Shown here: positions 38,608-56,692 of the stretch, in pieces
How the letters are laid out: each line of letters begins with the position of its first letter
Numbering within the stretch: the first letter of the stretch is position 1
Assembly (NCBI RefSeq): GCF_025399835.1
Contig: NZ_JAODVR010000001.1
Coordinates: 2,480,001 to 2,544,000 of the forward strand
From: Haloarchaeobius sp. HME9146
GTDB taxonomy: Archaea; Halobacteriota; Halobacteria; Halobacteriales; Natrialbaceae
Direction: 5' to 3'
DNA length: 64,000 nucleotides
Program-made: the position numbers and the translations under genes
The notes under the pieces: model-generated
Database searches by the model: none
What the model was told of the DNA's origin: nothing
What the model saw: only the letters and a program-made list of their open reading frames with translations

Positions 38608-41250
38608 TCACCCGATTTGGACGGTTTCAACACTTCTCGAGGGGGTAAGTACGGAGGCGACAAACTGGGATTTGATTTGGGCGCTTAGGATGCACTGATG
38701 GAGCACGTACTGAGAACCGTTGTTATCGGAGGCCGCTAGTCGGCCCGAGATGTCACTAGTAAGATCACAACCGGGAACAACTGCCTCATAACGATAGGTA
38801 CTGGCTACCCACAAGAGTCCCGCTCTCTCAAGTTCACGGCGATGCCGATCGTAGGATGATTCTGAAATATTGGCCTTCTCGATTATCTCGGAGCGTCCAA
38901 TCGGACGACCTGCTGCGAACAGTGCCCTCATCAATTTCCTCGCTGTCGGCGGTAGCCACGGATACACTTTCTTTGGGGAGACTGCGCCCAATCCTCGCAG
39001 GAGTAGAGGAAGCGATAGTGGTTCGCCTGGTGGTGCCAACCGGTTCGTGGCTATCAGAGCTTCTGCTACATCGAATGGGGAACACGTGAGGGATCTCTTC
39101 GAGCCATTCCCGAACACATGTAGGAACATGTTCGTTACAGTGGAGTAGCTCAGAGGGTCCGCTAGGGTTCTATCGAACCGACCAAGCACGGTTTCTACAG
39201 TCTCTCGAATTCCCGTGTATGTGTTGGCTCGTGCTACTTCCACCGGGATTACGATTCCTGACTCCGTGCCTGCGGCGATTTGTTCACGAACAGGAATCGC
39301 TTCTAGTACTTCGACGATATCCGCCTGGAAATTAGTCACGGAGGGTCCTACGATGACCCAGTTTGCGGTGAGCTCTGCATGTCTATCTTGGATGTCGATG
39401 TCTACCGGTAACCTGTAACTGAGTTTGTCTCCGTCCGTCTCGAGTAGCATGCGAGGCGCTGAGTTACCTTTATACGTGGCGCTTTTCGGGACTGTATTCT
39501 GCAAGAACCCAATGAACTTCTGGTACCGAGAGTCATCTCTGGTGAGTTGCTTCGTGTCGGGGATTCTGATGTGGATTGTGACGTCGAACCCGAGTATATC
39601 ATACAGTGTTGTTGCTGAGGCAAGCAATCCGTGTGCTTGTTTACAAACTCGCGACCATGCTTGGGGACTTTCGCTGCGGGAACTGAGTTGGCCGAGTAAG
39701 TCTGTACAGACACTGGAGTACTTCGCACGGAATTGGTCGTAGTCTCGTTCGCCTTCAGAATACCAGCCTAGCTGCCGTCCGAGACGTACCAGGTCGAAAG
39801 TTGTGTCATCTGTAAGAATCGGTGAAAGGCGAGATGAGGTGAGAATACTGTCGAAAGCGTGGTCGCTGAATAAGGTAGCAGCAAGACGTACGAGTGTGGG
39901 TACAGGGCCTCCCCACTGAGTCACCACATGGACCTCATTCTCCGAGTGACCGAGATACGCTACTCTCCCATCTTCGAATTTGGATACTCGGTCATCTATG
40001 AGTGTCACACCTTCGGCGTGTCTCCCAGCTCTCAGCCGCTCTACCAGCTCTCCATCATTGAGCCAAGAGTCAGGTAGCGACAACTTGCGGACCTTCCTTC
40101 CCATGAGAATTTGCGCGTTCGCCTCGAGAGCCTCTTCGAAGGGGTGACCCTCGAAATTCGGCTGGGGAGAGTCGGACCTGCACACTAGTCTTGTTTCTGA
40201 TTGAGGGAGGTTGGTAGTGTGGGGGGAAACGCTAGCTTGGTGAGGGTGCCGCACCCGATAATCCTCTGTCACGAGACTTTGGGCGTATCTCCCACTTGAA
40301 GTCAGAGAGATTGAGTTATAGCGCGATTCGACTACTTTGACAAACCCATAGCGTTGTTCCAGTTCTCGGTAGTACCGGTCAATCGTTCCTGGTTGGATAT
40401 TGAGAGCTGGATCCGCCTTCAAATCGCGCAACTCCCGAAATTCTCCTGGCTCACCCGGAATTGCCGCTAGTAGCTGTAGTCGTCCTTTGCTCGACGCGAG
40501 TTCACCCAGCTTGGCTAGCACATCTTCCGGGTCAAGGGGATGCTGCGTCGAGTCCACAGGTGAGTACTCACATGAGTATGTCTTGTAATCCTCAGTAAGG
40601 TGCTCTTCACACCAGTCGTGGTGCTTTTCGAGCAGGAACTTCTTGAGAGGGGGCGAGACCAGGACTTCCATATCAATACCCTTAGAGAGTATAGCGATTG
40701 TTTCGAGTCCTGCTTCACGCTGACTACGCCGAGTTCTCCTCCATTTGTCCTCATCAAGTTCAAGCAACACACGGGGGGTGGTAGAGCAAATTTTAATCAA
40801 CTGAACCGGCCCAGTGGATATGTCGTCAATCGTGCTATCTGTGCCGTCACGACCCGTGGCTACTCTGGTCAGAGCTTTAAACGACTGTGGAGGATTTTCG
40901 TTACCGCAGGAGGGCCAGTCATCGATAGATTCGTCCCTATAGTTGATTATGAACTTCGTGGCTGCCCAGCGATACCAGCCGTTTGAAGCATCTACCTGTT
41001 CGCGTTTGAGTCCTTCAGGGATGAGACCGGGTCGTGACCTGGCTAGCGAGACCGGATCGTATTGAGTGGCTACTTCTTCAACTGCTTGGACCATCCAAGG
41101 AAGCAGTTCTTCGATTAGTTGTGGGAGCCATTCTCGACGAGAGGGGCAGATATTGGTCAGGTGTACGTCGAAGTCCTTTGGATTCGTTTTTGTCGAAGCG
41201 AAGGCCAGCCCGACGCTCGGTTCCATACTTTGGGTGTTCGGAGACCTCAT
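38608..41250 (-). CDS. 880-residue protein with two winged-helix domains
   Basis: The protein has no recognised catalytic motif. Two winged-helix-like segments are visible: residues ~240-330 (LQLLAAIPGEPGEFRELRDL, TIDRYYRELEQRYGFVKVVE) and ~780-850 (LMRALFAAGRPIGRSEIIEK, SSYDRHRRELERAGLLWV). Parts between look alpha-beta. Large proteins of this type appear in haloarchaeal plasmids and integrated elements, annotated as MarR-like or hypothetical; I cannot tell whether it regulates or acts in replication. An alternative start is ATG at 41226. Confidence 0.6.
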   Translation of the reverse strand: MRSPNTQSMEPSVGLAFASTKTNPKDFDVHLTNICPSRREWLPQLIEELLPWMVQAVEEVATQYDPVSLARSRPGLIPEGLKREQVDASNGWYRWAATKFIINYRDESIDDWPSCGNENPPQSFKALTRVATGRDGTDSTIDDISTGPVQLIKICSTTPRVLLELDEDKWRRTRRSQREAGLETIAILSKGIDMEVLVSPPLKKFLLEKHHDWCEEHLTEDYKTYSCEYSPVDSTQHPLDPEDVLAKLGELASSKGRLQLLAAIPGEPGEFRELRDLKADPALNIQPGTIDRYYRELEQRYGFVKVVESRYNSISLTSSGRYAQSLVTEDYRVRHPHQASVSPHTTNLPQSETRLVCRSDSPQPNFEGHPFEEALEANAQILMGRKVRKLSLPDSWLNDGELVERLRAGRHAEGVTLIDDRVSKFEDGRVAYLGHSENEVHVVTQWGGPVPTLVRLAATLFSDHAFDSILTSSRLSPILTDDTTFDLVRLGRQLGWYSEGERDYDQFRAKYSSVCTDLLGQLSSRSESPQAWSRVCKQAHGLLASATTLYDILGFDVTIHIRIPDTKQLTRDDSRYQKFIGFLQNTVPKSATYKGNSAPRMLLETDGDKLSYRLPVDIDIQDRHAELTANWVIVGPSVTNFQADIVEVLEAIPVREQIAAGTESGIVIPVEVARANTYTGIRETVETVLGRFDRTLADPLSYSTVTNMFLHVFGNGSKRSLTCSPFDVAEALIATNRLAPPGEPLSLPLLLRGLGAVSPKKVYPWLPPTARKLMRALFAAGRPIGRSEIIEKANISESSYDRHRRELERAGLLWVASTYRYEAVVPGCDLTSDISGRLAASDNNGSQYVLHQCILSAQIKSQFVASVLTPSRSVETVQIG

Positions 41251-42188: not shown

Positions 42189-45100
42189 ATGGCTACACTC
42201 CAGCAGATTACAGCGAATGATATCGCTGGCTGGGATTCGCTCTCCGATGTCGCATCTACCTTTGAAAAGCGCGGGCTGAAAGTTCGTGACAACCTCGGTG
42301 AAGACAACGAACTCGTCCTCCAGCTCACCGACCGCGAGTTCATCGTCCTCGTCGAAGCGGGGCCTGGAGAATCGGCTTCGGACTTCAAACCGGACGACCG
42401 ACGACGTCGAACTAACCTCGTCGCCACCAACGACTACGAGGAGTTCACGTTTCTCACCCGCATTCGCGCGCTCGACGGACAACAACACGGGCGGATTAAG
42501 CACCAGAAGCTCTCCTTCACCAAGGAACAGATGACCAGCGAGGGTGGCGAGAAGAACACTATCCTCCAGAAGCTCAACAGCCTCGAGTACGGTTCGGCGG
42601 CAGCAATCTACGACGACCTCTACGACACCAAGCAGGTCGTCAAGGAGTTCTACCAGCAGTTCGAGACCCTTCGAACTGATCTCGTGCAGGAAGTCGCTGG
42701 CATTCCGGACGACCGTGGTGACGCGAAGCAGCGCTACGTGCAGGTGACGCTCGACCGGATGATCTTCCTCTACTTCATTCAGGAGAAACGCCTGCTCAAC
42801 CGCGATCCGAACTATCTCCACGACCACCACAAGCAACGCGTGGACGAGGACGAGAACGTCTACGAGGAGTTCTACGAACCGTTATTCTTCGACTTTCTCG
42901 CCGAGAACAAGAAGAGCACCGAGTTTGGCGCACTACCGTACCTCAACGGCGGGTTGTTCTCGAAGAATCCCATCGAGGAGGAGTTCGAAGACGCTCGACT
43001 CGGTGAGACAACCGAACAAACCAACGAGCTGTTCGGGGATATCCTTGACTTCCTCTCTGACTGGAACTGGAACGTGGACGAACGGCTAGACATCGTCGAT
43101 CCCAAGAACCTCTCGCCGGCCATCCTCGGGCATATCTTCGAGCAGACGGTCAACCAGAAGGAGATGGGGGCGTACTACACCCCCGAGGAGATCACCGGGT
43201 TCATGTCTCGGCGGACGATTCACCCGTACCTCCTCGACCAGCTGAATGAGGAGGTCGGTGCCAACTATGAGGAGATTGACGACGTGTTTGGGTTCCCTGC
43301 TCCGGAGGCTGAGGGCGGAGTAGAGGCGCTAGCCGACGGCGGGGCGGTCACGGCACAAGTCCCAACTGAAAACGTCGAGACACGGCACGTGGAGACGCTG
43401 TATCACGACTTCCTGAAGGAAGCTCGAGTTCTCGACCCAGCGGTTGGGAGTGGGGCGTTCCTGCTCGCTGCTCAGGAAGTGCTGTTGGACATCTACATGC
43501 AGTGCATCGAGTTCTTCCAGCAGATGGACGACGAAGGGAAAACATGGGAACTGGAGGAACGTACTGTCGAGGAGCTGGAAACAATCGAAGAGGGACGTGG
43601 GAGTTCTTCCCTGTATGCGAAGCGGTCGATCATCCTTAACAACCTCTACGGAGTGGACATCGATGATGGAGCAGTCGAGATCTGTAAGTTGCGTTTGTGG
43701 CTCTCGATGGTCGCTGACATCGAAGATGAGCCCAGCGAGGTCGAACCACTGCCAAACATCGACTTCAATATCCGCCAAGGGAACTCGCTTATTGGGTTTA
43801 CTGACATTCAAGAGGTTGCAAACGACCGAGGTGATGCTTCGTTAACCAATTACGGCGGTGGTGTTGGCGAGAGCGTTGGGAGAATGTATGACGATGTCAT
43901 CAGTGCAGTTGAGCACCATCGGGCAGCAGATTCCGCGACAGAAGCAGCAAACGCTCGGCGGTTAGCAGAATCACGCATTAGCAATCACGGAGAAAAACTC
44001 AATGAGAAAATTCTGGATCAATTCCGTGAGGCTGGTGTAGACGACATCGGTATCGCTGAGGTACGTACCTTCTCCCCATTCCACTGGGTACTAGAGTTTG
44101 CCACGGTATATGCAGATGGTGGCTTCGATGTTTTGATAGGTAACCCTCCATGGGATCAACTCCGAGCAAGCCGTGACGATTTCTTCCCGAAATATGATGA
44201 AAGATTTCGAACCCGTCCTCCCTCAGAGAAGGATAATATCGAGAAAGATCTCCTGAAACAGGATGAGATTTCCCAATCCTGGGAGAAGTACCAAGCGAAT
44301 ATTGAAACTCAAATGCGGTATTTCACTGATGGGCCGGAGTATGAATTACAAACACCAGTAATAGCTGGCCGCAAAGACCCTAATGAAAATAATCTTGCTG
44401 GGCTATTTGTCGAAAGGATGTTTGAATTAGTCAAGAATAAGGGATACATAGCCCAGGTTCTCCCAGGAGTGATCTTCAACGGTTCATTCTCCAAAGACTT
44501 ACGGATGAAAATGCTGAACGAGGCATCTATTACCTCGCTTATTGGATTTGAAAATAAGGGCATATTTTCAGGAATTGATGACCGATACCAGTTTGCAGTG
44601 GTTACATTCCAGAACTCGGGGAGAACAGAAAGTCTAAAGGGGATTTTCAACCAAAACGACTTGTCCATATTACAAAATATTGAGCAGCAAGCGGTTGATA
44701 TCCCCAGAACAGTTCTAGCCGAATACTCACCAGAGGCTCGGATATTCCCGTTCCTGACTAACCAAACAGAAACCAATATTCTGAATAAAATATTCCAACA
44801 TCCATCTTTAGCAGAAGACATCGAGGATACGTGGAAGGCTATTCCATGTCGGGAACTAGATAGAGCCCGTGCTTCCAATCGATTTGTGGAATCGGAAGAG
44901 GAAGGGGATTATCCAGTTTACGGAGGGCGCAATCTATACCAGTTCCTTTATGATAACTCTCTTGAAGTAGAGGTTCAACCTCCAGAATTATTCAGCATCG
45001 AAGAAGAACAAAATCCCAAGGCGTCTGCCAAGTATCGGGTGAGAGAACGGAATTTCAACAATGGAAACCTCAAAAAGGCTATTTATGATAAGTTTGGGGG

Positions 45101-45821
45101 GCCAAAGTCCAATAAATCTCAGAAAGCGTTCGTAAACAATCTACTTGAAGAGACTAGGGGTGAAGGGTTGCATATGGGGGACGTACTTTTGGATTGTACA
45201 GAGTACCGAATCGGGTACCGGGAAATTGCCCGTTCCTCCGATGAACGAACCATGATCGCGGCTGTACTTCCAAAAGGAATCATTTGCCATCACAAAGTGC
45301 ATACTTTGCACCCATACGAAATTTCGCCTAGTGAAGATTCTCTATCTGATAATCCACTCCACAGTGCATATCAACGAATTTTCACCGATGAAGAAATGTT
45401 TGTGGTCGTTGGTTTGCTGAACTCAATTCCCTTCGACTTCCTGATGAGGACAAAAATTGATACAAGTATTGTCCAATACAAGTTCAAGGAGTCTCAAATT
45501 CCTCGGCTCACAGAAGGTGATGATTGGTTCCACTACATCTCCGAGCGAGCGGCACAACTGAATTGTTATGGAGAAGACTTCGCTGAGATGCGCGACCGGC
45601 TTGGTGGTGTCAAGGCGGAAACTAATCAGGATGCCCGGAATAAATTACAAGCAGAAATTGATGCCGCTGCATGCCATGCATACGGATTGGAACGCCGAGA
45701 TGTTAAGTTCATTCTCGAGGATTTCCACCGAGTATCGAAGCCACGAATTATGACGGATAACTACTTCGACATGGTGTTCGAGAAGTTCGACCTTTTGCGA
45801 GACGAAGGGCCCTTCAAATAA
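42189..45821 (+). CDS. Eco57I-class N6-adenine DNA methyltransferase
   Basis: The 1210-residue protein has an N-terminal helical region (~1-300) and SAM motif I VLDPAVGSGAFLLAA near 414-424. The catalytic motif IV is NPPW near 652 (FDVLIGNPPW). These place it in the Eco57I/BREX-PglX-like adenine methyltransferase group that modifies one DNA strand. The C-terminal ~400 residues should contain the target-recognition domain (YPVYGGRNLYQF, then KFKESQIPRL). Bases up to ~43,850 and after ~45,640 are GC-rich, while 43,850-45,600 is AT-rich, so the recognition part may have been exchanged. A NucS-like gene follows 15 bp downstream. Confidence 0.88.
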   Translation: MATLQQITANDIAGWDSLSDVASTFEKRGLKVRDNLGEDNELVLQLTDREFIVLVEAGPGESASDFKPDDRRRRTNLVATNDYEEFTFLTRIRALDGQQHGRIKHQKLSFTKEQMTSEGGEKNTILQKLNSLEYGSAAAIYDDLYDTKQVVKEFYQQFETLRTDLVQEVAGIPDDRGDAKQRYVQVTLDRMIFLYFIQEKRLLNRDPNYLHDHHKQRVDEDENVYEEFYEPLFFDFLAENKKSTEFGALPYLNGGLFSKNPIEEEFEDARLGETTEQTNELFGDILDFLSDWNWNVDERLDIVDPKNLSPAILGHIFEQTVNQKEMGAYYTPEEITGFMSRRTIHPYLLDQLNEEVGANYEEIDDVFGFPAPEAEGGVEALADGGAVTAQVPTENVETRHVETLYHDFLKEARVLDPAVGSGAFLLAAQEVLLDIYMQCIEFFQQMDDEGKTWELEERTVEELETIEEGRGSSSLYAKRSIILNNLYGVDIDDGAVEICKLRLWLSMVADIEDEPSEVEPLPNIDFNIRQGNSLIGFTDIQEVANDRGDASLTNYGGGVGESVGRMYDDVISAVEHHRAADSATEAANARRLAESRISNHGEKLNEKILDQFREAGVDDIGIAEVRTFSPFHWVLEFATVYADGGFDVLIGNPPWDQLRASRDDFFPKYDERFRTRPPSEKDNIEKDLLKQDEISQSWEKYQANIETQMRYFTDGPEYELQTPVIAGRKDPNENNLAGLFVERMFELVKNKGYIAQVLPGVIFNGSFSKDLRMKMLNEASITSLIGFENKGIFSGIDDRYQFAVVTFQNSGRTESLKGIFNQNDLSILQNIEQQAVDIPRTVLAEYSPEARIFPFLTNQTETNILNKIFQHPSLAEDIEDTWKAIPCRELDRARASNRFVESEEEGDYPVYGGRNLYQFLYDNSLEVEVQPPELFSIEEEQNPKASAKYRVRERNFNNGNLKKAIYDKFGGPKSNKSQKAFVNNLLEETRGEGLHMGDVLLDCTEYRIGYREIARSSDERTMIAAVLPKGIICHHKVHTLHPYEISPSEDSLSDNPLHSAYQRIFTDEEMFVVVGLLNSIPFDFLMRTKIDTSIVQYKFKESQIPRLTEGDDWFHYISERAAQLNCYGEDFAEMRDRLGGVKAETNQDARNKLQAEIDAAACHAYGLERRDVKFILEDFHRVSKPRIMTDNYFDMVFEKFDLLRDEGPFK

Positions 45822-45836
45822 AACTAGCAACAAAAG

Positions 45837-46868
45837 ATGGTCTACCACGTAGACGAAAATGGTGTGTCAGCACTCGAACCAACGAGTTTCGATGCCCTCA
45901 ATCTAACCGAGGCAGACATCGAAGAGTGGATCATTGAGACACCCTCGATACTCGGTGAAGACCTACTCGTGGTCGCTTCCCAGTATGCCAAGTTCGACCG
46001 GACTGCCGAACGTCCCGACGTGTTGGCACTCGACCCCGATGGCAAGCTCGTAGTCATCGAACTGAAACGGGATAGCGCCGACAAGACGACCGACCTCCAG
46101 GCGATCAAGTACGCGAGCTACTGCTCGACCATCAGCGCCGAGGAACTCCAGCAGGACTACCGGGCATTCTGGAACAATCGCCGCGACGATGACGACCAAC
46201 TCACGCCTGAAGCCGTCGGCGAGCAATTCAGTGAATTCCTCGGCGAGGACGTTGTCACCACCGAAGACGGTTACGCGGACTTCGTCCTGGACGACCGGCC
46301 ACGGATTTTGCTCGCCGCGGGCAGCTTCGGCCCGGAAATTACAACCCCTGTTGTGTGGCTTGAACGAGAGTACGGGATGGACATTACCTGCATCGAACTA
46401 GACGTCCACCAACGCGACGAGGAGGTGTTCGTCAGTGCTCGGCAAGTGCTCCCCATCCCAGAGGCCGAGGAGTACATGGCCAAGCGCCGGCAGAAAGAAC
46501 GCCAACAGAGCCGGTCGTCGAGTCGAGCAGATCGGGCGATCACCGTCTTGCTAGAGGCGGGGCTTGTCGAGGAGGGGGACATAGTTCTCTTTGACGAAGA
46601 AAGCCTGCCAGACGACGCTGAACGCGAGTACGACCCGGAGGACGACTTCTGGCGTGGTCGAATCACGGGGAAGACTGGGCGGAGTGACAACGTTGAGTGG
46701 CTGGAAAACGGTGCAGAGTACTCATTCACTGCTCTGGCTCAGGAAGTACTCGAACAGGCGACTGGCCGTGAGTTCAACGTCAATGGATACCCGTACTGGC
46801 TACACCCTGACCACGAGATGAGCTTGTCTGAACTTCGACGGTCGAAGGTCGGTGACATTGACTGGTGA
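45837..46868 (+). CDS. NucS/DUF91 nuclease fused to a RAMA-like domain
   Basis: The 343-residue protein has a NucS-type PD-(D/E)XK domain: PDVLALDPDG with Asp61, then LVVIELKRD with Glu75 and Lys77, and QAIKYASYCS. The C-terminal ~100 residues (LLEAGLVEEGDIVLF, FWRGRITGKTG, YSFTALAQEVLEQATGREF, NGYPYW) resemble a RAMA domain, a module found beside restriction and methylase proteins that may read modified DNA. It lies 15 bp behind the methyltransferase, on the same strand and probably in one transcript. It is a candidate nuclease or modification sensor of the system. Confidence 0.8.
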   Translation: MVYHVDENGVSALEPTSFDALNLTEADIEEWIIETPSILGEDLLVVASQYAKFDRTAERPDVLALDPDGKLVVIELKRDSADKTTDLQAIKYASYCSTISAEELQQDYRAFWNNRRDDDDQLTPEAVGEQFSEFLGEDVVTTEDGYADFVLDDRPRILLAAGSFGPEITTPVVWLEREYGMDITCIELDVHQRDEEVFVSARQVLPIPEAEEYMAKRRQKERQQSRSSSRADRAITVLLEAGLVEEGDIVLFDEESLPDDAEREYDPEDDFWRGRITGKTGRSDNVEWLENGAEYSFTALAQEVLEQATGREFNVNGYPYWLHPDHEMSLSELRRSKVGDIDW

Positions 46869-47078
46869 ATCTCGGTATGCAGATTGTTAACTTGGAAGAT
46901 TAGCCCCAATCACCATCCCGTTCAAAGACGACCCGACTATCGGTTCATGAGGAGTACGACAAAATATGCGAATAACTCCAAAAGACCAGGGCGAATCAGC
47001 TAGTGAGGCTCGACCAATAAGAAATAAATATTCATAAATAGTATGGGGGGAATCAAATTGGCCACAACCAGTACACTA

Positions 47079-48272
47079 CTATCGGAGGGTAGTTTCTGCC
47101 TTGACTTCTGGTTCGCCAGTCTCCGAAGGATCGGGAACCGATAACAACTCGTTGACGACGGAGGGTCGATGTTGGTTCATTAGCTGATAGGTTTCTTCGA
47201 TTGACCGTAGTCGGACGCCTGTCCGCTCACTGTAAAGTTGAAGCTCTTCGTCGGTACGTGCATGAGATCCGAAATACCAGAGATCGAAACCGTCTCGATT
47301 ACTCTCTTCAGCATATGTGTTGAGGTCATCGACTTTGGAGGTAGACCCTTTCCGGAAAGTGATTTGGGATAGTATGGGTGTCTCTGTCTCTGCATCACGT
47401 GCGATAATATCGACTGCAATTTGCGAGCCTCCCATCGGTTGGAGATGGAAGTAATCTTGATACGCAGATTCCTTTGCGTCCTCTTGGTCAATGTGTTTAT
47501 CAAGGCCGCTTCGAAGGTATTCATCGCACAGAATCTCTAATTGACCATCCGACAGTAACTCAACTTCTTCCGCATTCCTTATTTTGTTTTTTGCGTTGTC
47601 CCACAAGCTCTCCGTGAACTCTGGATAAGAACGAACATCACTGAGGTTCGTTACCCCTAGATATGCTGCAACAAGTTGCTGATTCCCGTCTTTCCAACGG
47701 GCTGTGGTTTGTTGATGACGGATAGAGCCGAACATTGGATAGTGACGGTACCAGATCCACTGAGGCTTCTTGATTTGGATTGCTTTCAGAACTTTTAGAC
47801 AGTCGCTTCCCTCAGCACCGTTAACCAATGTATTGAATTCTTCCAATAGATGACCCTCACACCGAGACTGGATATCTGGCTCACGCTCCCCCAATTCTGC
47901 TTCAATATGACCGACAACTCGATTCTCCGGATCTAAATCTTTAGGATGTGTCTCAGATCCTTTTCCACGACAAATGATAATATGGATTGTTGAGTCAAAT
48001 CCTTCAGCATCCTCAACAGCAGGCCCTACGTGGCCTACTTTCAACCCACCTTTTAGCTCCGGCGCTTTGTGATATCGAACTCCCAAGATAGCTCCCTGTG
48101 TAAGGTAGTCCTTGAGCTTATCTAGTTTCTTGACCTCGTCTGGGTGTGCCGAGACTGGAGTGTCGTTATAGTGAATCGCTGCTAAATCGTTGTGGTAGAG
48201 ATATCGGGTCACAGATTTGTGGAAGGAGGCCTTGTCCGTGTGATTGATGAAGGCAGTTAGCACAGATGACAT
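47079..48272 (-). CDS. unrecognised defence-locus protein with possible PD-(D/E)XK motif
   Basis: The 397-residue protein is AT-rich in codon use. Its front half is helical with Trp/His-rich segments (KKPQWIWYRHYPMFGSIRHQ). Near residues 290-315 the order IAVDIIARD, then PILSQITFRK resembles the strand pair of a PD-(D/E)XK nuclease core (Asp, and a degenerate Q-x-x-x-x-K), but spacing is not canonical. It sits 76 bp downstream of the helicase gene on the same strand and converges on the NucS-like gene. Its role in the locus is likely from location only. Confidence 0.55.
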   Translation of the reverse strand: MSSVLTAFINHTDKASFHKSVTRYLYHNDLAAIHYNDTPVSAHPDEVKKLDKLKDYLTQGAILGVRYHKAPELKGGLKVGHVGPAVEDAEGFDSTIHIIICRGKGSETHPKDLDPENRVVGHIEAELGEREPDIQSRCEGHLLEEFNTLVNGAEGSDCLKVLKAIQIKKPQWIWYRHYPMFGSIRHQQTTARWKDGNQQLVAAYLGVTNLSDVRSYPEFTESLWDNAKNKIRNAEEVELLSDGQLEILCDEYLRSGLDKHIDQEDAKESAYQDYFHLQPMGGSQIAVDIIARDAETETPILSQITFRKGSTSKVDDLNTYAEESNRDGFDLWYFGSHARTDEELQLYSERTGVRLRSIEETYQLMNQHRPSVVNELLSVPDPSETGEPEVKAETTLR

Positions 48273-48348
48273 CAGGTCTGATTCGATGTTGAAGAGTTAA
48301 TAATTTTTTGACCAATGGTATTACTATTCAAAAAGTTTCACAGGCAGG

Positions 48349-51300
48349 TTATGACCCAATCACACCCCAGCATATTAGTCGGGCCTGGACAGCGCTCTCA
48401 CCCACTAGAGTGGTCTGGTACTCCGCAGACATCTCGATATTGTCCTTGATGAACGCCTCCAGCTCGACGAGGAACTCCTCGACCGGCCAGTCGCCGAGTG
48501 CAGTGTAATCGGGGTGTTCCCGGAAGGTTTCTCGCAACACTCTGTCTTCGTCCGTGTGCTCCAACTTCACTCGATCGAGCTGGTCGAACAGCGCATTCGT
48601 CCATTCCCCGACTGTATCGTGTTCATCTACGGGTGCGGGTTGATCGCCGTACTGTGGCAGAATTCGCATCTGCATCATATCGAGGAGCATCTCCTGTGTG
48701 GCCGACTGACCACCGCCACTGAACACCTCTTCGACCTGACCTTCACGTATCTCCTCTAACCGCTCGGAGAGATGCTCCTCGATTGACTCTCTGTTCGCTA
48801 ACACCCTGTCGGTGTTTCCGGATAGTTGTTTACCCTCGGTTTCCGGTGTAATGCCGAGTGCGCCAACGGGTCGTTCCTTCAGATCACCAGTGAAAGGCTT
48901 GTAGTACAACGCTCGCCGCACACGTCCGAGCGGCGCATCCTCCGGTTCACCGGTGTCTTCGTTCTCGAACCACAAATGGACGAGACCGAATACACCTGGA
49001 CGCGGGCCGCTTTCGTGGTCAATGGCGTTCGTGTAGAGGAACTCACGGTCATTGGTGTGCTCCTCGAAGTAGTCCTCCGCGAACTCGAAGTCTTCAGAAG
49101 CGAGTCCATAGTCGTCGTTCAGCTCTTGCTTGAGTAACACGCGCTCGAATGCCGCGTTTTCGTCGCTTCCGGCGTTCCGTAGCAGTGGATTCTTCGAAGT
49201 GTCGTCCAGTTCGTTGTAGTCTGTCACCTCCCGGGACTCCCGAATCGAGGACTCGATCTCCTCTATCTCCAGTTCGCCGATGGTCTTCTCTGTCTCGACT
49301 CCTGCCTTCTCCAGCACCGCATCTTCGTTCGGGTCAAGGATGTTGTTCTCCTTCCCGACGATGAGGGCAATGTCGTTGATTTTCGCCTGCAAGCGCTGGA
49401 GAAGCTTGATTGCAGCCTCGATGTCTCCATCAGGATAGAAGTTGTGTACATACTTGTCCGCGGTCGATCCGATGCGGTCGATGCGACCGACCCGCTGGAC
49501 GATTCGCATGGGGTTCCACGGAAGGTCGTAGTTGACGACGACCGAGATGTCCTGAAGGTTCACACCTTCGCTGAGGGTGTCCGTTGCGACCACGTACTGC
49601 AACTCCGTCTCCTCACTTTCAGCTAGTGTCTGCTGGTATCCTGATGCTTCTGGAGCGAACCGTTTGATGATGTCCTGTTTGTTCTCGTCACCGCCCTTTA
49701 CAACCGCACTGTTCTCCATCGTCATGGGTGACGATTCGTTTTCGACGAGCGTTCTGTGGACGTAATCTGCGGTCGCACGGTACTGGGTGAAGATGAGTAC
49801 TTTTTGCTCGTATCCGTTCAGAACCTCGGCTAACCGGTCAATCTTGGGGTCACGGAACTCGCGGAGCGCGAACACGGCTTCGTAGAAGTCCAATGTGGCG
49901 CTATCGGATTCACTCAAATCGTGTCCGGGATAAAGGATGGGGTTCGGATCATCTTCAGGTACGTCCGGAAGGACTTTTGCACCGTGGTCATCGAGCCAGT
50001 GCTCCAGTTCGACCTCCAAGTCCGCGACAGCTCCAGAGTCACGGGCTACCCGACCGATGAACCGGGAGAGGAAGTACGCAAGGAGCGTCAGGTCTTCGCG
50101 AATGTACGTTTTCACCTCTCCCACCGTGGCATCGGCTAGTTCGTCGTCTGAATCGCCCCCATCTGCTTGGAGGGCACCACTGTCGAACCCAAATTCCTCA
50201 AGCGTTTGCTCCAGGTCTTCAGCCGCGTCTGCTCCCTCAACGAAATCCTCTAATGTCGTTCCTGGCTCATCGCCACCCATGGTACGCAGTACATCGATAT
50301 CTTCCTCCTCGGGGAGCCCGTCGAGGAATCCAAGAAGCGAACGCTCACTCTCGTGTAGCGTCTGTACTGATTGGACGAAGGCGTAAGTGGAGGACTCGAG
50401 ACGTTTCAGCAGGTTGAGCTTGTACAGTGCTTTCAGTGTGCCCCCTGCCTGCGGGTTCTTGATGGTGATGTGTGGGAGGTGGAGCGCATCCATCACGTCT
50501 GGAAGCATCCGGTAAATGGGCTGGTAGGCGGGAGGCAGTGAGTACTGCTCCTTGTTCAGTTCTGGTGGCTTGAAACTCATCTCGAACTCGTCTTGATCGG
50601 TCAGCGTCTCTTTGACGTGCTTTCGAGTTCGGAGCACCATCACCTCGTTTAGTATCTCGGAGATCTCGTCCGAGTGGCGCTTCAGCTGTTCTGTCATCTG
50701 ACGCTGCTCCTCCTCAGAGGCCTCCTCTTTCCCAGCAGCAACTCGCTTACGTTCCGCAGCGAGATCGATATAGTCGTCAAAAGCACTGAATTTCAGCGAG
50801 GCCTTGTTCATTAGCTCGTTTCCGTCGGTGAACAACCCGATGAGATTCTTGAGGTCGCTGGCTGAATTATTGATTGGCGTCGCAGTCAGCATTATCATCG
50901 TGTTACTCCGGAGGACTCGAACGTTCGCATGTCGTCGGGTTCCTTTGTAATCGTCGTCGTCAACGGGGTTTGGTTCCCACTTGCCGTAGTTTCGGAACCG
51001 GTGAGCCTCGTCGATGAGCACTACGTCAAATTGGCTATCTAGTGCATTTACCTCCTCGTAGGTGAGGTTCTGGAACTTGCTGATGCTCATGACTCGCAAG
51101 TGTTCACCATCGACCTCGAGGCCGAAGAACGGTTCTCCGTCCTCGTCTGTCGCGTCCTGGAGTAGGTCACGCCACTGGTCGGTCAGGTTGGCCGGGACGA
51201 TAAGGAGACATCGGTCGCCTTGTTCACGGTAGTCGTATAGGAGTTCGCTCCCGATGAACGACTTCCCCAAACCGACTGAGTCGGAGATTATACAGCCATT

Positions 51301-52155
51301 GTATTGCGAGAGCTTCGTCTTTGCACTCTCGTAGCCGAGCGTCTGGAAGTAGTAGAGTGGGCTGTCACGGACGCTGACGTTACCGTTCAGCTCATCATAG
51401 GCGAGGAGTTTGTACATCTCGAACGGCTCCAGATACGTTCCAACATCTTCCCTGCCCGGGTCTCCAATGTCCTCCTTCTGCTGTTCTTTCCACTGCTGGT
51501 ATCGCTCGCTCTCCTCGATAATATCGATGATTTCCTCAGAGAACTCCTCGCCGTTAGCCCATTGATTGTCGTACCAATCCTCGAATGCCTCTGCATCGCT
51601 ACCGTTCTTACTGGTCAAGTTGAGCTCGATGTTGTGACGGTGACCGGACTGTGAGAAGTTCGATGACCCTACAATAGTCACCGCGCCCCTCTGATCTTGG
51701 TCACCCTCGCGCAGACTCGGGTCCTCTGTTGCCCCCCGGAAACACGCTCCTTTTGCGTGGAAATATCCTGAATCAGGATTTCGAACTCGGACGTCAACAA
51801 GTCCTTCTGCAACGAAGTCACGAAGACGATCCAGCCGCTCTACTTGTGGGTTGTTCAAGTCATCAATATCCTGCACCAGTTCTTCCTCAAACTGTTCGCG
51901 AAGGGTCTGCCCTTCACTTACCTCTTCAACGGTGCTTCGGTCGGTCTTTCGCCCCATAAGGATTCGAAATGGGGCTTGTCCGAGTTCATCTGGGTCGCGG
52001 AGATTATCGAGATCTTCCTTGAACAGGTCGAACCCGGATAGGTAGAAATAGCCAGTCGCGATACGGATCTCCTCGCACTCGGGGATGACGGTCTTGTAAA
52101 CATCTTCGAGCGTCTTGTTCGTGTTATCCACAAGTGCATCAAGCGAGGGCAACAT
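48349..52155 (-). CDS. PLD-nuclease/SNF2-helicase fusion
   Basis: The 1268-residue protein starts with a phospholipase-D-like nuclease domain holding one HKD-type motif (FHAKG near 135, GSSNFSQSGHRHN). It then has a SNF2 ATPase: motif I DSVGLGKSF near 295, motif II DEAH near 381 (VVLIDEAHRF), motif III TATPINN, and motifs V-VI TDTLSEGVNLQD with QRVGRIDRIGS. Such enzymes move on double-stranded DNA; a one-HKD nuclease would work as a dimer. With the methyltransferase and NucS-like proteins it probably forms an ATP-driven restriction system. PLD and SNF2 modules are also used in DISARM, as separate proteins. Confidence 0.88.
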   Translation of the reverse strand: MLPSLDALVDNTNKTLEDVYKTVIPECEEIRIATGYFYLSGFDLFKEDLDNLRDPDELGQAPFRILMGRKTDRSTVEEVSEGQTLREQFEEELVQDIDDLNNPQVERLDRLRDFVAEGLVDVRVRNPDSGYFHAKGACFRGATEDPSLREGDQDQRGAVTIVGSSNFSQSGHRHNIELNLTSKNGSDAEAFEDWYDNQWANGEEFSEEIIDIIEESERYQQWKEQQKEDIGDPGREDVGTYLEPFEMYKLLAYDELNGNVSVRDSPLYYFQTLGYESAKTKLSQYNGCIISDSVGLGKSFIGSELLYDYREQGDRCLLIVPANLTDQWRDLLQDATDEDGEPFFGLEVDGEHLRVMSISKFQNLTYEEVNALDSQFDVVLIDEAHRFRNYGKWEPNPVDDDDYKGTRRHANVRVLRSNTMIMLTATPINNSASDLKNLIGLFTDGNELMNKASLKFSAFDDYIDLAAERKRVAAGKEEASEEEQRQMTEQLKRHSDEISEILNEVMVLRTRKHVKETLTDQDEFEMSFKPPELNKEQYSLPPAYQPIYRMLPDVMDALHLPHITIKNPQAGGTLKALYKLNLLKRLESSTYAFVQSVQTLHESERSLLGFLDGLPEEEDIDVLRTMGGDEPGTTLEDFVEGADAAEDLEQTLEEFGFDSGALQADGGDSDDELADATVGEVKTYIREDLTLLAYFLSRFIGRVARDSGAVADLEVELEHWLDDHGAKVLPDVPEDDPNPILYPGHDLSESDSATLDFYEAVFALREFRDPKIDRLAEVLNGYEQKVLIFTQYRATADYVHRTLVENESSPMTMENSAVVKGGDENKQDIIKRFAPEASGYQQTLAESEETELQYVVATDTLSEGVNLQDISVVVNYDLPWNPMRIVQRVGRIDRIGSTADKYVHNFYPDGDIEAAIKLLQRLQAKINDIALIVGKENNILDPNEDAVLEKAGVETEKTIGELEIEEIESSIRESREVTDYNELDDTSKNPLLRNAGSDENAAFERVLLKQELNDDYGLASEDFEFAEDYFEEHTNDREFLYTNAIDHESGPRPGVFGLVHLWFENEDTGEPEDAPLGRVRRALYYKPFTGDLKERPVGALGITPETEGKQLSGNTDRVLANRESIEEHLSERLEEIREGQVEEVFSGGGQSATQEMLLDMMQMRILPQYGDQPAPVDEHDTVGEWTNALFDQLDRVKLEHTDEDRVLRETFREHPDYTALGDWPVEEFLVELEAFIKDNIEMSAEYQTTLVGESAVQARLICWGVIGS

Positions 52156-53253: not shown

Positions 53254-53421
53254 ATGCCGAAAACAAACCAGACAAGAGTCAATCAGGGTAGCAACGGTCA
53301 GTATAAGGTTACTATTCCCAAGGCGTTCGCCGACAGTCTCGACCTCGACGGAAAAACAGTCGAATGGAACCTCGCCAGTTCCTCGAAGCTCACCATGGAG
53401 GTCGTTGAAGAAGATGAGTAA
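53254..53421 (+). CDS. 55-residue AbrB-like DNA-binding protein
   Basis: The short frame MPKTNQTRVNQGSNGQYKVT continues with IPKAFADSLDLDGKTVEW, a SpoVT-AbrB swapped-hairpin pattern (NGQYKVTIPKAFA is the strand-loop-strand core). Its stop lies 8 bp inside the recombinase start, so the two genes are translationally coupled. It probably represses or tunes expression of the serine recombinase. Confidence 0.75.
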   Translation: MPKTNQTRVNQGSNGQYKVTIPKAFADSLDLDGKTVEWNLASSSKLTMEVVEEDE

Positions 53422-54079
53422 CCCTCGGGCCATCGGTTATACTCGTCTCTCACAGACCAGTGACACCAGCATTCCAGACCAGAAACAAGAGATTCGAGAC
53501 CTCGCCGCACGAGAGGGGTTCAGTCTGGTAAAAATCTACAATGATGGCGAACGCTCCTCGGGTTTTGACGCAACTCGTCCCGAGTACCTTGAGATGCAGG
53601 CGTACCTCGAATCAAACGATGTGGATGTACTCCTCGTTCGAGACCGCGACCGTCTTTCCCGAGACAAGCGGGAGCGCTCCATCCTCTATTACGACCTCGA
53701 CGAGTGGGGTGTTGAGCTGTGGACAACTGTCGATGGCCAAGTTGAGCTCAGTGACGACGAATCATGGCTCATTGAGATGATTCGAAACTATATGGATGAC
53801 GTGGCTAAGCGACGTGAAATACAGAAAGCGAAACAGAAGGTCCGTGAACGTGTTGAAAGTGGGTACTGGCAGGGCCGCCCTCCGTTCGGGTTCCAGTTCG
53901 ATACAGACAAAAAGTATCTTGAACCTGATTCAGAAAAGTTCCAGATTGCGCTTACTGTGATAGGACTGTGGGAGGATGGTGCGACTTGGTCAGAGATTGG
54001 TGACGAAACCGGCGTCAGCAATGGTACTATCTCTAGAATTTTGAACAACAAAGAACGATATCTTACTTACTCTGAGTAG
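53414..54079 (+). CDS. serine site-specific recombinase
   Basis: The 221-residue protein is a resolvase/invertase: IGYTRLSQTSDTSIPDQ with the nucleophile Ser13, an arginine-rich VRDRDRLSRDKRE catalytic segment, then the long helix (MIRNYMDDVAKRREIQKAK). It ends with a C-terminal helix-turn-helix (WSEIGDETGVSNGTISRILN). It would exchange DNA strands at paired sites. The inverted repeats in the spacer to its left are a candidate site, or part of one. ATG at 53414 overlaps the AbrB-like stop. Confidence 0.9.
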   Translation: MSNPRAIGYTRLSQTSDTSIPDQKQEIRDLAAREGFSLVKIYNDGERSSGFDATRPEYLEMQAYLESNDVDVLLVRDRDRLSRDKRERSILYYDLDEWGVELWTTVDGQVELSDDESWLIEMIRNYMDDVAKRREIQKAKQKVRERVESGYWQGRPPFGFQFDTDKKYLEPDSEKFQIALTVIGLWEDGATWSEIGDETGVSNGTISRILNNKERYLTYSE

Positions 54080-54128: not shown

Positions 54129-55424
54129 CTACCAGTAGATGGCCACAGGCTTGACTTCGAAAACAGGTTCAATATTTTTTTGGTCATCATCAACCTGGAC
54201 TTTTGAGTCTTCCAATGCATCTATCGCTTGATTCCGCAACTCCAAGCGTGTCCCCGAATCGACTTCATCGAGATCCGTCTGATCAATAAATACATCGGTA
54301 TATGTCTCAAGAAGGGCTTTTTTCGCTTCCCTCCCACTTTCGTAATCATCGACATTAACGGACTCAAATACTTGATTCACTATCGAGTCAGTGAGGGAAT
54401 CATTTACTGACTCACCAGTTTCAGTCTCAAGTAACGAAGCATAATGGTAGACGAGAGCGGAGTGAACGGTTGGATTGGTTGTACCGGTTTCTCCATTCTG
54501 AAGGTCAATATCAACAAGTTCAGTCCGTGCTTCACTCAACCCATTCTCCATGAGACTGTTAAGCTGCTCAGCCGCGTTTCCGGGAAGACTGTTTAAGACC
54601 TGAGTAATTTTTAGTGGGTACCACGTCCCCACATCCACCGAGGTAATTCGACAATACATTACGAACTCCTCGTCATCAAAAAGCGTATCAATTGGGTCTG
54701 CTCGGAGATTTTCCAACTCAAGTTGGGCTACTAAAAGTACTTCCGAATCTGGACTCGGAGTTTCACTTTCTTGAAGAGGTTGTAGACTTCTTGTGTCCTC
54801 AGACACCAATTCATAATTGGTCGCGGTTCCTATGACTGGTATTGAGCCCCCAATACTTTCGCGGATTAGTGTGAGCATCTGTTTCGTATCTGGATCGAAT
54901 TGCTCGGGAGCAACGTCGTAGAAGTACTCTATCGCTCGGTATAGGCGGAACAAAAGGTTAGCTTGGAGATCGACTCGCAGTTCAAGCACATCCCCTCGTT
55001 CAAAATCTGAAAGGTATACTTCTCCAAGATCATTTATTTCGCGACTCTTCTTGAGGTTTCCAAGAGAAACTCGCTTCTTCACAGCGTTGCTCTGATACAA
55101 CTGCGTGAATCTTGATTGGCCTGATTCAAGAGAACTGACAGTCTCATTAGCAGATTGCTGTCGGTTCTGACCATTCGCCCTTACATTCCCAGATGCAACC
55201 CCGGCATCCGCAGAAATCCCCCCACCAAATTGTCTTGTCTTCTCTTTCAGCGATTTGTTTGATGTCTCAACAGGGATGCCCCCTTCGCCAGTCGAGGCAA
55301 GTAGGCTGCGAACGCTCAGTTCATCTAGGTAGATAAATTCCCGCAGGGAACCGAACCCCTCTTGTTCACTGTTTGATTCGCCAGTATGCTGACCGAAGAG
55401 CCAATACTTCCAATAGCCCATCAT
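54129..55424 (-). CDS. DUF6414 family protein
   Basis: The 431-residue protein opens its conserved part with REFIYLDELSVRSLLAS near residue 28, the DUF6414 signature (aromatic-Leu-Asp then a Ser-rich segment). A low-complexity Gln/Asn/Ser/Gly stretch follows (about 70-115). The rest is alpha-beta with no catalytic motif. The family has no known function. Its ATG overlaps the stop of the AAA ATPase gene by ATGA, so the two products are made together, and the ATPase presumably acts on or with it. Confidence 0.75.
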   Translation of the reverse strand: MMGYWKYWLFGQHTGESNSEQEGFGSLREFIYLDELSVRSLLASTGEGGIPVETSNKSLKEKTRQFGGGISADAGVASGNVRANGQNRQQSANETVSSLESGQSRFTQLYQSNAVKKRVSLGNLKKSREINDLGEVYLSDFERGDVLELRVDLQANLLFRLYRAIEYFYDVAPEQFDPDTKQMLTLIRESIGGSIPVIGTATNYELVSEDTRSLQPLQESETPSPDSEVLLVAQLELENLRADPIDTLFDDEEFVMYCRITSVDVGTWYPLKITQVLNSLPGNAAEQLNSLMENGLSEARTELVDIDLQNGETGTTNPTVHSALVYHYASLLETETGESVNDSLTDSIVNQVFESVNVDDYESGREAKKALLETYTDVFIDQTDLDEVDSGTRLELRNQAIDALEDSKVQVDDDQKNIEPVFEVKPVAIYW

Positions 55425-56692
55425 TCTTCCTCCTTCCGCTGTTCTCGCGCCTGCCGTCGTTTCCTTTGGCTGTCAATCCTTTCGAACGCGATTTGAATAT
55501 CCTCTTCATCTATAACTGTTCGACCATCCTCTGCTGCTGTTATTCCTGCCCGTTGGACTAAACTTTGTAAGTCCGCGCCTGACCACCCCTCTGTTCGGCT
55601 AGCGATATCTGCCGTATCCACGCGGTCTGATGTCGGTTTTCCTTGGAGAATCACTTCTAGAATCTCTTGCCGGCCTTTTGCCGTGGGCAACTCAAATTCA
55701 ACTTCCTCACCGAAACGACCTGATCGACGTACAGCTGGATCGATTGCATCTGGTCGATTTGTTGCTCCAATCACAACAACATTTCCTCGATCCTCCAAAC
55801 CGTCAAGAGCGTCGAGGAATTGGGCTACAATACGACGTTCTGTTTCGTCAGCGCCACTGCGGCGGGGAACAATACTATCTATTTCGTCAATAAACACAAT
55901 GGCTGTGGTGTCTTCTTTAGCAGCCTTCGATTCTGCTGAGTTGAAGAGTTTCCGAATTTGCTGCTCGCTTTCACCGTAATACTTGCTGACAATTTCTGGG
56001 CCACCAATGCTGAAAAAGAATCCTTCCAACTCGTTTGCAATCGCCTTCGCAACCATCGTTTTTCCTGTGCCTGGAGGCCCGAAGAAAAGGAGGCCGCGTT
56101 TTATGTCCAGATTCAATTCATCAAACTCCTCGGACCGTTCCCTAGGTATAAATACTGCCTCGCGCACTCTCTCTTTGACTCTTCGAAGACCTCCAATATC
56201 CGCAAACGAAATCTCCGGAAGTTGCTCTGGACGAAAATCCTTCCCCGTCTCTTCCTCTATTGCGTCCTCTTCGCCACCAAGATTTATCGAGATCGTTCCA
56301 ACTTCGACATCTGGTTTTGGTGTAATCTCAACCGGGTCATCACTGATGATACGACAGAAACTATTTGCTTGAGATAGCTCAATCGTATTCCCTACCTCAA
56401 CAGAATCAATTTCATTGCACGGTATCGATCTCACACCGTTTTCGGTTCTGACTACTAAGGTCTCTTCAAGAACTTCTTCAACGACTCCCACTGATCTGTG
56501 GTGCCGCCATCCTTGTTTCTTAGCGATCTCAGTTATGACCCGGCTCCCCCTGACTGAATCTGTTATGACCAAATCACCAGGTTCGACATCGGTGACCTGT
56601 GATTCCACTGTATCATTGTCCCCATCGGTATATCCGATTATGTATTTCCCATCGTCCGCTACATCATTAACGGAGGCAATAGTGGTCACCAT
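55421..56692 (-). CDS. single-domain AAA ATPase, Cdc48/PAN-like
   Basis: The 423-residue protein has a beta-rich N-terminal domain (~1-150), then one AAA module: Walker A GPPGTGKTMVAKAIANE (around 206-213), Walker B AIVFIDEIDSIV, sensor GATNRPDAIDPAVRRSGR and a helical lid. A basic C-terminal helix (RIDSQRKRRQAREQRK) ends it. It should assemble as a hexamer that remodels or unfolds a substrate. It lacks a protease partner gene nearby. It differs from the core Cdc48-type ATPase at the window start by having one AAA domain and AT-rich codons. Confidence 0.85.
   Translation of the reverse strand: MVTTIASVNDVADDGKYIIGYTDGDNDTVESQVTDVEPGDLVITDSVRGSRVITEIAKKQGWRHHRSVGVVEEVLEETLVVRTENGVRSIPCNEIDSVEVGNTIELSQANSFCRIISDDPVEITPKPDVEVGTISINLGGEEDAIEEETGKDFRPEQLPEISFADIGGLRRVKERVREAVFIPRERSEEFDELNLDIKRGLLFFGPPGTGKTMVAKAIANELEGFFFSIGGPEIVSKYYGESEQQIRKLFNSAESKAAKEDTTAIVFIDEIDSIVPRRSGADETERRIVAQFLDALDGLEDRGNVVVIGATNRPDAIDPAVRRSGRFGEEVEFELPTAKGRQEILEVILQGKPTSDRVDTADIASRTEGWSGADLQSLVQRAGITAAEDGRTVIDEEDIQIAFERIDSQRKRRQAREQRKEEE

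Follow-up and report, generated by a model that had tools for sequence, protein, structure and literature searches.

Which genes of a restriction-like locus belong together, and which of them would choose the DNA that is attacked? This question is raised by a 64,000-nucleotide stretch of the genome of Haloarchaeobius sp. HME9146 (G000 C1:2480001-2544000; hereafter the window), in which genes for an Eco57I-type DNA methyltransferase (M) and for a PLD nuclease domain fused to a SNF2 helicase (R) converge on two smaller genes, one encoding a NucS-type nuclease with a RAMA-like end and the other a 397-residue protein. An initial annotation had read these genes as one compact four-gene restriction system distinct from DISARM. 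All four open reading frames are present on the strands and at the coordinates that it gave (Table 1), with the NucS gene starting 15 bp after the methyltransferase stop codon. The restriction-like character of the locus, its separateness from DISARM and the pairing of M with R are upheld by our analysis, whereas the fixed four-gene unit is not: the system consists of a fixed two-gene core and optional genes.

This conclusion comes from a sample of 391 haloarchaeal genomes, in which full-length relatives of R (57-92% identity) mark 50 loci in 44 genomes, or ~11% of those sampled; L-numbers below are labels of related loci. A methyltransferase homologue adjoins R in all 50 loci, across many genera (one methyltransferase is cut at a contig end), and the core pair lies tail to tail in all but three. 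Beyond these two, no gene family is shared by all 50 loci. The co-occurrence that the initial annotation had proposed to check therefore holds for M and R and fails for the rest, as the NucS-RAMA gene is present in 8/50 loci and the 397-residue gene in 2/50, both between the converging 3' ends of the core genes, and the sole other locus found with all four genes is on a Haloarcula taiwanensis plasmid (L093/L159). Elsewhere this gap spans ~0-69 bp or holds unrelated genes, namely a TATA-binding protein paralogue (four loci), DUF4268 and HNH proteins, or a weakly nucleotidyltransferase-like pair. Because its contents vary so widely among loci, the gap is a slot for interchangeable genes, and on the helicase tree both the NucS gene and the slot TATA-binding protein gene changed state at least three times. 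A division of nuclease activity over several proteins, as had been suggested, is unneeded for the core, given that many loci have an empty gap.

Both core proteins carry the domains first assigned to them. M matches Pfam Eco57I (E = 8.9e-24) and PADLOC REase_MTase_IIG (2.9e-69), and its DPAVGSGAF and GNPPW motifs are invariant among homologues. Against solved structures, phmmer gave no relative of M, and a profile search recovered only the 7lni-group adenine methyltransferases and BpuSI, over short catalytic stretches. When residues 1-140 were checked for a Type IIG nuclease motif, in a sequence alignment alone, the D...(D/E)xK pattern was not among the invariant columns. R matches PLDc_2 (3.8e-9), SNF2 (4.2e-11) and Helicase_C (7.5e-18) in Pfam as well as PADLOC C3a139 'HKD+Snf2' (3.1e-80), its closest solved relative by sequence is RapA, and its HKD motif (HxK...GSSNF...NxE) is invariant in 13 representative homologues and conserved in a 49-sequence alignment. 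Public records name the two proteins 'helicase-related protein' and 'DNA methyltransferase', and a scan of viral contigs returned nothing beyond distant helicases (24-29% identity).

The two ends of M relate to R very differently. Over the 38 loci with one full methyltransferase (27 after redundancy removal), distances across residues 1-430 of M correlate closely with those of R (rho 0.93, with 0/2000 permutations as high; 0.88 in the non-redundant set), while those across residues 520-1209 do not (rho 0.11, 357/2000 permutations; 0.12 non-redundant). In a comparison with the closest locus, L120, identity drops at codon ~545, from ~0.88 to ~0.58, and rises again beyond codon ~1110; alignments of L121 and L093 to the window break at 43900 and restart at 45489 and 45381, respectively, and the swapped block has a GC content of ~0.41-0.49 (0.45) against 0.58 upstream. 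The C-terminal half of the window's M is most similar to that of L135 (81% identity), where R is just 70% identical and the NucS gene is absent. These alignments show that the C-terminal half is exchanged between systems by recombination, and we infer that it is the seat of specificity; the co-divergence of the other end suggests that R docks on the N-terminus of M. An assembly of unrelated defence genes in a low-GC island, which the low GC content and variability of the region could suggest, has almost nothing left to recommend it and is refuted for the core pair by its unbroken adjacency in many genera and by this N-terminal co-divergence.

A second form of exchange is found in relatives. 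In 15 loci, a second C-terminal methyltransferase half is present in inverted orientation, in either order, and the alternative halves within one switch locus are 53-59% identical, with a single helicase serving both. Halorussus vallis and Halorubrum salinarum are among the switch strains. A tyrosine recombinase gene (Phage_integrase, 6e-12) lies alongside in 14/15 of these loci, ~50 bp off in intact ones; at the fifteenth, L131, the sequence covered runs only to the contig end. L129 and L130 (G383 C4:14284-33075 and 135568-154359) differ by a 1,468-bp inversion that is 100% identical inside and has collinear flanks of 99.97-100% identity; the inverted segment spans the first ~436 codons together with the DNA upstream of the gene, and its arms share ~53 bp. 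Both lie on one 167,465-bp contig, the first ~46 kb of which are repeated at its end with 99.9% identity. This contig is most simply read as an unclosed circle of ~121 kb, and the culture probably held both switch states. The same inversion is seen when loci of separate genomes or contigs are compared in pairs (L132/L101, L102/L103 and L128/L108), and L114, L133 and L134, which lie elsewhere in the helicase tree, have another crossover site nearer codon 480-510; the switch loci form two clades with different crossover sites. At the level of assembled sequence, these comparisons demonstrate switching by inversion in at least two lineages, and the tyrosine recombinase would be the enzyme that performs it. 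This invertible specificity half, the strongest new element of the analysis, is found in relatives and not in the window, where the methyltransferase is not of the inverted type (it has a single match in its own genome) and the 26 kb examined around it contain no member of this tyrosine-recombinase family.

The smaller genes of the window are better understood as occupants of the slot. The NucS part has a weak Pfam match (E = 3e-4) and a clear predicted fold, matching EndoMS at Z 13.3 (2.2 Å over 108 residues), with D61...E75-L-K77 invariant as expected of a PD-(D/E)XK nuclease; the whole protein matches PADLOC PDC-S11 (1.1e-57). For the C-terminal part a Pfam sequence search gave no match, and its predicted fold superimposes on the MPND-DNA structure 7ydw, a structure of the MPND RAMA domain, at Z 10.5 (2.1 Å, 89/96 residues), in line with the RAMA-like end first described. 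The possible nuclease motif noted in the 397-residue protein fared less evenly: residues 235-374 have a predicted PD-(D/E)XK fold (MspJI, AspBHI and EndoMS at Z 9.1-9.8), but the motif reads D288...Q303-x-T305, its D288, Q303 and T305 are invariant in the 8 homologues aligned, and nuclease activity is uncertain because Thr replaces the expected Lys in all of them. A McrB-like match of its N-terminus (Z 5.4) was too weak for use.

The initial annotation had the RAMA part read the mark of the neighbouring methyltransferase, and a four-component system of this kind would let it gate NucS and the other nucleases. All 8 NucS-RAMA copies of at least 76% identity lie within the system, with copies of 45-56% outside it, and the RAMA fold is confirmed by prediction. 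The gene is nonetheless confined to a minority of loci, and 2 of its 8 in-system copies look interrupted. Compared with their L120 counterparts, the window's NucS-RAMA protein has 96% identity and R 92%, while the specificity half of M has 56%; since the RAMA protein is so conserved across a specificity swap, it does not follow the target sequence. The best match to the window's specificity half also does without a NucS gene, and we regard a gated four-component system as very improbable; the RAMA domain could sense methyl-adenine in general. There is a less remote, if still doubtful, alternative in which the two slot genes form an independent Type IV-like unit, directed at modified DNA of foreign origin, that shelters in the 3' slot, a reading compatible with the core explanation that we prefer. 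Distant homologues of both genes occur elsewhere without the core, the predicted fold of the 397-residue protein resembles the modification-dependent MspJI and AspBHI, and the slot carries unrelated genes in other loci, but the linkage of every closely related NucS-RAMA copy to the system speaks for more than chance shelter.

We consider it probable that the core is a two-subunit, ATP-dependent restriction-modification system with specificity in the methyltransferase and with slot genes as back-up nucleases. M would recognise the target and methylate adenine in host DNA; R would dock on the conserved N-terminal part of M, travel on DNA using ATP and, as its invariant motifs suggest, cut DNA at unmarked sites. 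The C-terminal half of M would be a plug-in specificity module, recombined between systems or flipped, and the NucS-RAMA and PD-(D/E)XK-like proteins would probably be back-up nucleases, possibly modification-sensing. A shared helicase with exchangeable methyltransferase halves fits an enzyme with its specificity in the methyltransferase, as in the logic of Type III and Type I systems, and site choice by the helicase alone is unlikely because switching protection but not cleavage would expose or harm the host. Several points weigh against this account. Adenine as the methylated base is deduced from membership in the Eco57I family; co-divergence of neighbouring genes can stem from linkage alone; and target halves are known to be exchanged in other methyltransferase families, so that such exchange is by itself no proof of restriction. 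The linkage objection is weakened because the C-terminal half is equally linked and yet does not co-diverge. The broader view of a widespread and so far undescribed archaeal restriction-modification family, in which a motor-nuclease is tied to the N-terminus of its methyltransferase, the target cartridge is exchanged, and flipping by a dedicated recombinase in at least two lineages constitutes a programmed switch, is one that we favour by a narrow measure.

Known systems share parts of this design. In Type III (Mod/Res) and, within one chain, Type ISP (LlaBIII) enzymes, a helicase-nuclease is guided by a site-reading methyltransferase, as we propose here; the present system differs in having an HKD rather than a PD-(D/E)XK nuclease, a SNF2/RapA-like motor and separate convergent genes. 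In NgoAVII, a PLD nuclease is coupled to a helicase-type ATPase for ATP-dependent restriction. The same combination is reported for CglI (PMC5737866) and SauUSI (PMC7913695); the CglI nuclease and ATPase are separate proteins, unlike the fusion seen here, and SauUSI is a single-protein restriction factor. In the present system the fusion protein is partnered by a large Eco57I-type methyltransferase, the probable seat of specificity. Type I systems whose hsdS genes can be switched (PMC7394358) likewise change target recognition by recombination around a shared motor and nuclease, but here it is the methyltransferase gene that is split, and in these archaea its N-terminal segment, along with the region upstream, is inverted so as to join one or the other of two C-terminal halves that stay in place. 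DISARM has a methyltransferase, a SNF2-type helicase and PLD activity, all represented here as predicted from sequence, yet its PLD protein is separate whereas PLD and helicase share one open reading frame here, and DrmA/DrmB are not beside the locus. As first reported, no drmA/drmB-like gene is among the window proteins scanned, and the sole MZB/DUF1998 (DrmB-type) domain of the host genome lies on a different contig (C2:550738).

Of the systems described so far, the closest are the DUF499-centred, BREX-related (Type-2) systems, with HKD-Snf2 helicases and an N6-methyltransferase (PMC12839542), and an archaeal COG1743-DUF499-SNF2/nuclease operon (PMC7641849). With these, the window's system shares an HKD nuclease N-terminal to a Swi2/Snf2 helicase, an N6-methyltransferase partner and optional extra nucleases, and some of them have a RAMA reader module; it differs in its convergent two-gene form, its exchangeable or invertible specificity half and the absence of a nearby DUF499. 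DUF499 (PF04465) is absent from the host and from 31/44 system-bearing genomes, and in the remaining 13 it lies on a different contig or far away, never near any of the 50 loci. A search of the host genome for PglZ (PF08665) gave no match, and DUF3780 is absent from the ten window open reading frames scanned, with no genome-wide search made. Membership in BREX, the DUF499-type BREX-related systems or DISARM was rejected, as neither PglZ nor DUF499 was found in the host genome and no DrmA/DrmB among the window proteins scanned. A BREX-like mechanism, in which the methyltransferase labels self DNA and the helicase stops unmarked DNA from being replicated or transcribed while cutting it little or not at all, would suit the kinship just described and the weak similarities of M to PglX/DrmMI and of R to BrxH/RapA, but the host's lack of PglZ and DUF499 and the invariant HKD nuclease motif make it unlikely. 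In the open-access literature searched we found no description of the core pair, of haloarchaeal Eco57I/helicase systems or of archaeal specificity inversion.

Table 1. Features of the core and slot genes, in window coordinates.
Feature	Coordinates	Strand	Evidence
M, Eco57I-type, predicted N6-adenine methyltransferase, 1210 aa, core gene	42189..45821	+	Pfam, PADLOC, 50/50 loci
M N-terminal module, aa 1-430, predicted helicase-coupling part, including motif I DPAVGSGAF	42189..43478	+	distance correlation
Swapped catalytic/putative specificity block, ~codons 545-1110; NPPW at 44142-44153	43821..45520	+	identity drop, GC
NucS/EndoMS-like PD-(D/E)XK nuclease (45906-46412) and RAMA-fold domain (46515-46862), optional cassette gene	45837..46868	+	fold, PADLOC
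397-aa optional cassette gene; predicted PD-(D/E)XK fold 47151-47570; possible reader-like N-terminus	47079..48272	-	fold search
R, one-HKD PLD nuclease fused to SNF2/RapA-like helicase, 1268 aa, core gene	48349..52155	-	Pfam, PADLOC
HKD/BfiI-like nuclease motif H133-x-K135 ... GSSN166F ... N175-x-E177	51625..51759	-	homologue alignments

The right half of the window (30001-64000), where the locus is found, is a 34-kb stretch of low GC content (45-57%), against 63-70% in the left half; the drop at ~30 kb is sharp (~0.69 to ~0.50) and may be an acquired-island boundary. No tRNA genes are present in the window. On the minus strand at 38608-41250 is a gene for an 880-residue protein with weak winged-helix matches, distant relatives of which (22-34% identity) are found close to the methyltransferase in L110, L119 and L125. 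A serine resolvase-like gene is at 53405-54079 (plus strand), and 8 further loci have members of its family in their flanks, those of L097 and L123 with 64-66% identity. At 54129-56692 (minus strand), a DUF6414 protein gene overlaps by 4 bp that of an AAA ATPase (CDC48/proteasome-activating type, with weaker IetA similarity), possibly a second defence-like pair. The AAA/DUF6414, resolvase and 880-residue genes were excluded as parts of the system because their linkage to the core is inconsistent.

Several related loci depart from the common arrangement. In the three that are not tail to tail (L119, L139 and L140), two different full methyltransferases flank the helicase on a single strand, and the helicase is 57-58% identical to the window's. 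TATA-binding protein paralogues occupy the slot of L111, L122, L123 (PF00352, 1.6e-32) and L127 and the flanks of L099 and L141, six loci in all, and could provide dedicated transcription control of the system. A 295-residue slot gene (L109:8850-9737, plus strand) has a Fic-like HPMPNANHR stretch and no Pfam match. L142-L146 are a tandem version, with an HKD-SNF2 helicase of ~29% identity directly downstream of an Eco57I-like methyltransferase of 1100-1160 residues; a helicase and Eco57I-methyltransferase pair is also present in Limosilactobacillus reuteri, and together with these five tandem loci it implies that DUF499-free pairs may extend beyond the window's family.

An apparent four-gene system can thus be a fixed core with a slot for interchangeable genes. 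The two-gene restriction-like system offers a natural separation of motor-coupling from target-recognition parts, and its relatives suggest that archaea can reversibly switch the specificity of DNA methylation, a possibility open to direct testing since switch loci have been sequenced in both states.
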